NCBI RefSeq assembly: GCF_003289955.1
Contig: NZ_QLZR01000002.1
Span: 1 to 64,000 of the forward strand
From: Planococcus halotolerans
GTDB lineage: Bacteria > Bacillota > Bacilli > Bacillales_A > Planococcaceae
Direction: 5' to 3'
Length of the DNA: 64,000 nt
Shown: positions 53,918 through 54,447 of the stretch, piece by piece
Position numbering within the stretch: the stretch's first letter is position 1
Layout: each line of letters begins with the position of its first letter
Program-made: the position numbers and the translations under genes
Notes under the pieces: model-generated
What the model was told of the DNA's origin: nothing
The model's database searches: none
What the model saw: only the letters and a program-made list of their open reading frames with translations

Positions 53918-53953
53918 TAAAAGAGAAGACTTGCCTTATGGTAAGACAAGCCT
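53918..53953 (-). terminator. Terminator of the OsmC-family gene
   Basis: On the minus strand, CTTGTCTTA and TAAGGCAAG (one G-U pair) form the stem, followed by TCTTCTCTTTTATTG. It lies 24 bp beyond the TGA at 53977, i.e. at the end of the full-length frame, which supports the whole frame being one gene. Confidence 0.7.
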
Positions 53954-53976
53954 TCCCAAAATCTTTTTTCACCACA

Positions 53977-54447
53977 TCAATAACTTTCAATTTCCCATGA
54001 ATGCACAATTTCCACTGCCCCTTTTAAAGTTTGGGCAACCGGGCAGCCTCTGTCAAAAACTTTTAAAGCCCGTTCTGCAGCTTCTTCTTTGCCTGCAGGC
54101 ACCTTCACATGGTAATGGCAATCGATTTTGGTGATTTTCAAAACACCTTCCGGCGCTTCGATGGTACCTTGGACGTCTGCTTTGACTTTGTCTGGTGAAG
54201 TCGGTATTTGACGCGCTTCCAGCGCGCCTGATAATGTACCGACCAGTCAGCCGCCGGCAGCCGCTACAATATGGTCCAAAGTGGAAGGATATTCAGGATC
54301 TGTTTCAACTCCGTAAAAGTCACGGACTCCGCCGTGTACCCCGAACATGAGCGGCTCTTTAAAATCGCCGATATAGGCTTCCCGGATTTTATTGGCCGTA
54401 TCTTTCTGGATTATCGTTATTTTAGTCAGTTCAATAATTTCACTCAC
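53977..54447 (-). CDS. OsmC-family peroxiredoxin-like protein with in-frame TGA (candidate selenocysteine 67)
   Basis: The minus-strand frame from GTG 54447 runs 66 codons (ending STLDHIVAAAGG), meets TGA at 54247-54249, then stays open for 89 more codons (LVGTLSGALEARQIPTSPDK ... VFDRGCPVAQTLKGAVEI) to a TGA at 53977. The total of 156 residues is the normal OsmC length. The internal TGA stands exactly where OsmC/Ohr proteins carry the reactive peroxidatic Cys (compare AACF of Ohr), and the second conserved Cys (RGCPV) is intact. A GC-rich hairpin follows the TGA with an apical loop of GGA 26 nt away. Either the protein contains selenocysteine, or a Cys codon (TGC/TGT) has mutated to a stop. 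The terminator lies after the second stop. The cysteine desulfurase gene is just upstream. Expected role: reduction of organic hydroperoxides. Confidence 0.7.
54192..54246 (-). promoter_or_regulatory. Hairpin after the in-frame TGA, candidate bacterial SECIS
   Basis: In the mRNA directly after UGA, CUGGUCGGUA can pair with UACCG and ACCAG (5-nt bulge). The apical stem GGCGCGCU-GGA-AGCGCGUC has 8 bp including one G-U. The loop begins with G and starts 26 nt from the UGA. As I recall the published bacterial SECIS models (small loop with an early G, 16-37 nt from UGA), this fits. Confidence 0.5.

Follow-up and report, generated by a model that had tools for sequence, protein, structure and literature searches.

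An OsmC-family gene of Planococcus halotolerans that is interrupted by an in-frame TGA is, we conclude, probably a real selenoprotein gene and not a pseudogene, with selenocysteine (Sec) predicted to be inserted at codon 67 (probability roughly 0.93). The gene lies on the minus strand of the window, by which we mean the whole 64,000-nucleotide stretch of DNA that was analysed, and the case for it is one of sequence: a conserved TGA followed by a SECIS-like core, a genome equipped with Sec machinery, co-occurrence with selA, and a predicted OsmC fold. The original prediction had put forward a candidate OsmC-family selenoprotein at this locus, a proposal that is supported both by the presence of the machinery and by relatives that carry TGA, not TGC/TGT. 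The features concerned are these:

53977..54447, minus strand: putative OsmC-family selenoprotein gene of 156 codons, with a GTG start at 54447 and a stop TGA at 53979-53977.
54247..54249, minus strand: in-frame TGA at codon 67, read as selenocysteine; TGA in 60/60 related loci, aligned with the Cys of 1ml8 and 1ukk.
54200..54243, minus strand: SECIS-like hairpin, comprising the lower stem GUCGGUA/UACCGAC (54243-54237 with 54206-54200) and the upper stem-loop, as judged from the fold and pair counts.
54211..54227, minus strand: SECIS core, a GCGCGC/GCGCGU stem with the apical loop UGGAA (54221-54217), as judged from codon identity and low synonymous difference.
54043..54045, minus strand: second conserved Cys, codon 135, in a CPV motif and probably the resolving residue; Cys in 60/60, aligned with the Cys of 1ml8 and 1ukk.
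53923..53957, minus strand: terminator-like stem-loop 3' of the second stop; the scan finds a mean of 0.9 such sites in shuffles of the region.

The TGA at codon 67 is the sole internal stop of the OsmC-family frame and is followed by 89 codons. As first described from the letters of the DNA, then, the frame is broken by this TGA alone; the TGA does fall on the reactive Cys position, being aligned with the reactive Cys of E. coli YhfA (1ml8) and with that of T. thermophilus OsmC (1ukk); the second Cys (RGCPV) and the remaining 89 codons are intact; and the terminator placed beyond the second stop corresponds to the terminator-like stem at 53957-53923. With the TGA read as Cys, the protein scores 57.1 bits against the Pfam OsmC profile (PF02566), above the gathering cut-off of 27.5. 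The genome holds five OsmC-family matches, and a stop lies inside the window gene only. The GTG start codon was picked by position: the start nearest to 66 codons before the TGA was taken, and starts lie 64-67 codons before it across the 60 sequences. Many other TGA-split frames were listed in the window and the sel locus, and among them the folding energy after the TGA is lowest for the OsmC gene (-21.4), with selD next (-18.0). A tblastn search for plasmid carriage of the gene gave 0 matches at 1e-20 in 72,556 plasmid records.

The genome (3.62 Mb, 99.99% complete) encodes the selenocysteine machinery whose presence had been named as a check on the candidate: selA (568.5 bits), selB (368.1 bits, cut-off 242.25), a tRNA-Sec with anticodon TCA (62.7 bits, gathering cut-off 47), and selD (414.3 bits) all lie within ~6 kb on one contig. 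The selD gene is likewise interrupted by an in-frame TGA, at the catalytic loop (L023:1531-1533, contig C1), with two hairpins 3' of it, and is probably a second selenoprotein gene of this genome. SelD thus resembles the OsmC protein in having an in-frame TGA followed by hairpins, although the two proteins are unrelated and the selD fold after the TGA is the less striking (z -1.52, with 15 of 200 shuffles as low, versus z -3.53). Despite the full Sec pathway, the formate dehydrogenase alpha subunit (FdhA, TIGR01591) has no match in the P. halotolerans genome, and formate dehydrogenase was therefore rejected as the reason for the pathway.

The strong evidence for the putative SECIS element and for the TGA reading is comparative, and does not come from the folding energy of a single sequence. 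A family-level search found the gene in 13 of 261 genomes (E 1e-15 or better, own genome included), with a single TGA at this codon in all 13; an order-level search covered the same 261 genomes and returned the same 13 matches. A scan of named genomes for related loci yielded 60, spread over 59 genomes (two of them in Marinithermofilum abyssi), from Planococcus, Planomicrobium, Mesobacillus, Rossellomorea, Fictibacillus, Alkalicoccus, Pseudalkalibacillus, and others, with best-segment identities of 97 to 62% and Planomicrobium sp. Y74 as the nearest; these genome sets overlap, 11 of the 12 other family genomes recurring among the 60 loci. TGA occupies the reactive codon in every one of the 60, and the frame is open beyond it in 59, the remaining locus (L099) being broken by a frameshift 14 codons past the TGA. 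Of 398 genomes sampled across the phylum, six match at 1e-20 (own included), and all six copies in the other five have the TGA; in a class-level sample, 14 of 348 genomes match at 1e-12, of which 13 have TGA copies and one (G782) has a 3' remnant without the site. At these cut-offs no Cys version of the gene was found in the family (261 genomes, 1e-15), class (348, 1e-12), or phylum (398, 1e-20) sets, and the four other OsmC paralogues of P. halotolerans itself, which we take for other OsmC groups, fall below them. Whether close homologues have Cys or TGA had been raised as a further check, and the answer is TGA in every match that spans the site. Because 60 independent loci carry it, a sequencing error at the TGA is very unlikely. 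C135 is Cys in 60/60 sequences, and the region after the SECIS is under strong purifying selection (pN 0.05-0.24, pS 0.54-0.85, 10 pairs).

Decay or assembly error is seen beside intact relatives in the 3' remnant of G782 (L143), in the frameshifted copy of G654 (L133/L136), and in L099. Some genomes have two UGA-osmC copies (L080/L084; G299, L130/L135; G1004, L139/L145; G762, L140/L144), and G762 looks like the same organism as the one with L080/L084. Bacillus-like copies also occur under the titles Chryseobacterium sp. ISL-80 (L061) and Pseudomonas sp. ISL-84 (L075), names that look wrong.

The gene co-occurs with selA. Within the family, 27 of the 261 genomes have selA. They include every one of the 13 that carry the gene, which is found in none of the 234 selA-negative genomes (Fisher p 6.5e-15, kinship ignored). 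The original expectation that selenocysteine is rare in Bacillales holds insofar as it is a minority trait, but with these numbers it is not exceptional. The 14 selA-positive family genomes that lack the gene, all of one and the same genus, indicate that the gene is dispensable and that their Sec pathway must owe its retention to other selenoproteins or to SelD alone. In a wider check, which covered 50 of the 60 related loci and five further genomes and overlaps the family set, 54 of 55 gene-bearing genomes have selA; the sole miss (L089) is a metagenome-assembled genome, in which an assembly gap is a possible explanation. Two of the 54 selA matches have internal stops (two TGA in G674, one TGA and one TAA in G683), which may be assembly errors or decay; the UGA-osmC frame is open in both genomes.

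Immediately 3' of the UGA, the transcript can form a GC-rich hairpin whose GGA loop begins 26 nt past the UGA. The 63-nt fold has an energy of -22.1 kcal/mol (z -3.53), and 0 of 200 shuffles fold as low. In a synonymous-recoding control (5000 recodings, protein kept), a fold as good as that of the actual sequence was reached by 348 recodings when the whole stretch was scored, and by 46 when the 19-nt core was. Since 348 of 5000 fold as well, the folding energy of the single sequence is modest evidence, and we rejected it as proof of a SECIS. The alignment of the 72 nt after the UGA is gapless in 60 sequences (the window and 59 others, with L099 left out); the upper stem (columns 23-28 with 34-39) is paired in 100% of cells and the lower stem in 75.1%. 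Among the related loci the hairpin core is kept in 59 of 60, the exception again being L099, frameshifted just after the TGA. Codon usage across this core is nearly frozen: codons +8 (GCG), +9 (CTG), and +11 (GCG) are identical in 60/60, and codon entropy is low at +7 (0.69 bits) and +12 (0.84 bits), compared with a mean of 1.83 bits in 25 other invariant-residue columns with four or more codons; the lowest values outside the core are at -1 (0.75 bits) and +1 (1.10 bits). Between pairs of sequences, the synonymous difference averages 0.186 over codons +7 to +12, as against 0.57-0.81 in five other stretches. The apical loop is UGGAA in 24 sequences, UGGAG in 22, UGGAU in 10, and UGGCA in 4. A distant homologue (L134) has the same core, in what is apparently a GC-rich genome, where such codons should be commoner.

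Base-pair compensation was also considered as proof of the hairpin and rejected: among the 60 sequences no two-sided compensatory change occurs in the upper stem, where four of the six pairs are invariant and two vary on one side only. For the structure as a whole, covariation scores higher than in all 500 shuffles, but we do not rely on this because such shuffles take no account of kinship and only 75.1% of cells are paired in the lower stem. Published limits for bacterial SECIS elements, as given in PMC13188914, are an apical loop of 3-9 nt, an upper stem of 4-16 bp, and a distance of 16-37 nt from the UGA, together with a G in the first two loop positions. The hairpin lies within these limits, with its GGA loop 26 nt from the UGA and an 8-bp upper stem of which six pairs form in every sequence, and the initial impression of a GC-rich hairpin at a SECIS-like distance was thus correct. 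The nearly frozen GCGC-UGG-GCGC core also provides a simple search key.

The surroundings of the gene vary. A class-V aminotransferase gene, which we take to be cysteine-desulfurase-like, precedes it in the window by 53 bases; other neighbours are nadB-, nadC-, and nadA-like genes and a glycerate kinase gene. Across 60 loci (the window and L040-L098), no flanking cluster is found in more than nine, and some of the clusters consist of frames antisense to the OsmC gene; gene neighbourhood was rejected as a clue to function on the ground that the flanks are not conserved.

An AlphaFold2 model built on 41 sequences (pLDDT 91.8) has the OsmC fold, and its best PDB matches are OsmC/Ohr proteins, the top one being 1nye (Foldseek E 8.0e-10, TM 0.72). 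In this model residue 67 lies inside a long helix (56-77) and C135 just past helix 121-134. The Sec motif is ULxGT, the G at +3 and the T at +4 being invariant (60/60), and Leu57 and Asp58, at -10 and -9 from Sec, are both invariant among the 41 sequences. Hairpin-directed insertion through SelB is the established mode of Sec decoding in bacteria; here SelB with Sec-tRNA and GTP would bind the hairpin just 3' of the UGA, and selenocysteine would be inserted at codon 67. The residue would sit in the long central helix, which in OsmC/Ohr proteins carries the reactive Cys. The U67 selenol would most likely reduce a peroxide or another electrophile, and C135 may then resolve U67 through a selenenylsulfide, a U67-C135 bond that we infer by analogy with Ohr as described in PMC5962072.

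A peroxidase role for the protein is somewhat favoured. It is less sure than Sec insertion because the catalytic Glu that Ohr has at -10 from the peroxidatic Cys (Glu51 and Cys61 in XfOhr, according to PMC5962072) is replaced by Leu57, with Asp58 at -9; given these two residues, the protein may act on something other than an organic hydroperoxide. One may postulate an alternative scenario, doubtful but to be taken seriously, in which the product is a selenoprotein that acts not as a peroxidase but as a YhfA-type redox protein or as a selenium/sulfur carrier on another electrophile. The AAAGGU flank of the Sec and the acidic residue at -9 match YhfA (1ml8) and not Ohr (as described in PMC5962072), and the position 53 bases past the aminotransferase gene is in keeping with such a role; however, the superfamily as a whole shares the OsmC fold and the pair of conserved redox residues, and the neighbourhood is not conserved.

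A different question is whether the UGA is read as Sec at all. It could instead be read through by a near-cognate or suppressor tRNA that delivers Trp, Arg, or a similar residue, with the hairpin merely aiding. UGAC is a leaky stop context, and the base after the UGA is C in 60/60; this C, however, also follows from the Leu codons (CTN) that stand there in 60/60. The gene is moreover tied to selA, the position is that of the reactive Cys of the superfamily, and the hairpin fits the bacterial SECIS limits, all of which make such read-through highly improbable. That the TGA is a Cys-to-stop mutation in a pseudogene, the simple alternative offered by the original prediction, is scarcely credible: the TGA is one base from a Cys codon and decayed copies exist (the frameshifted L099 and G654, and the 3' remnant in G782), but the stop is kept across dozens of species (60/60 loci, with the frame open beyond it in 59) and followed by sequence with low pN and high pS, C135 is retained in 60/60, and within the family the gene occurs only in selA-positive genomes.

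OsmC-like selenoproteins were correctly given in the original prediction as a known class: one was reported in 2005 (PMC1088965), and it recurs in PMC2398784, PMC9312934, and PMC13188914. The catalogued protein belongs, however, to another subfamily. As described in these sources and in NCBIfam NF041052 (OsmC_like_Se), it likewise has an OsmC domain (PF02566), one redox-site Sec, and a bacterial SECIS after the UGA, but its motif is UxxT, with T at +3, whereas the window group has ULxGT, with T at +4, and lacks UxxT. The window protein scores 26 bits against NF041052, below the cut-off of 95, and all 41 aligned members are weak matches to it (best E 1.1e-06); NF041052 and the family of PMC1088965 may not be the same set. 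The 2005 family came from marine metagenomes (Zhang and Gladyshev 2005), and a table in PMC1088965 lists 10 and 17 Cys homologues, in contrast to the window group, for which none were found. A 2026 catalogue of 119 families and subfamilies, in which subfamilies are split by Sec position or motif, has a single OsmC-like entry in its table (PMC13188914), and a 2006 paper counts three selenoproteins in Bacillales (PMC1794560). In the literature searched, whose coverage leaves many journals outside, there was no report of an OsmC selenoprotein of Bacillales. Given the ULxGT motif, the score below the NF041052 cut-off, and the lack of a Bacillales report in that search, we call the window group a putative new subfamily of OsmC-like selenoproteins.

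E. coli YhfA (COG1765; 1ml8) shares with the window protein an AAGGC reactive-site flank, an acidic residue (Glu) at -9, and an aligned second Cys, but has Cys in place of Sec and is 22% identical in the structure match. The Ohr/OsmC peroxidases (TIGR03562; 1nye, 1ukk, XfOhr) share the fold, the reactive residue in the central helix, and the second Cys; the window protein differs from them in having Sec for Cys and no Glu at -10, and it falls below the TIGR03562 cut-off (33.1 versus 85.8 bits).

The lineage of P. halotolerans is aerobic, and as its genome has a full Sec pathway and no FdhA match, the OsmC gene would help to explain why the lineage keeps the pathway. A gene easily mistaken for a pseudogene would be a conserved selenoprotein gene in many Bacillus-like genera. 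At roughly even odds, we further suggest that these proteins form a subfamily of OsmC in Bacilli and related Bacillota whose members are all selenoproteins, no Cys form occurring in nature, and which is defined by ULxGT and the nearly frozen SECIS core; in P. halotolerans, which has no FdhA match, this protein would be one of few selenoproteins, together with SelD, that keep the Sec pathway in an aerobe. Nearly all selenoproteins have Cys homologues, according to PMC13188914, and a group for which no Cys form was found is for this reason unusual. Such a group may point to functions of selenium that sulfur is unable to fulfil.
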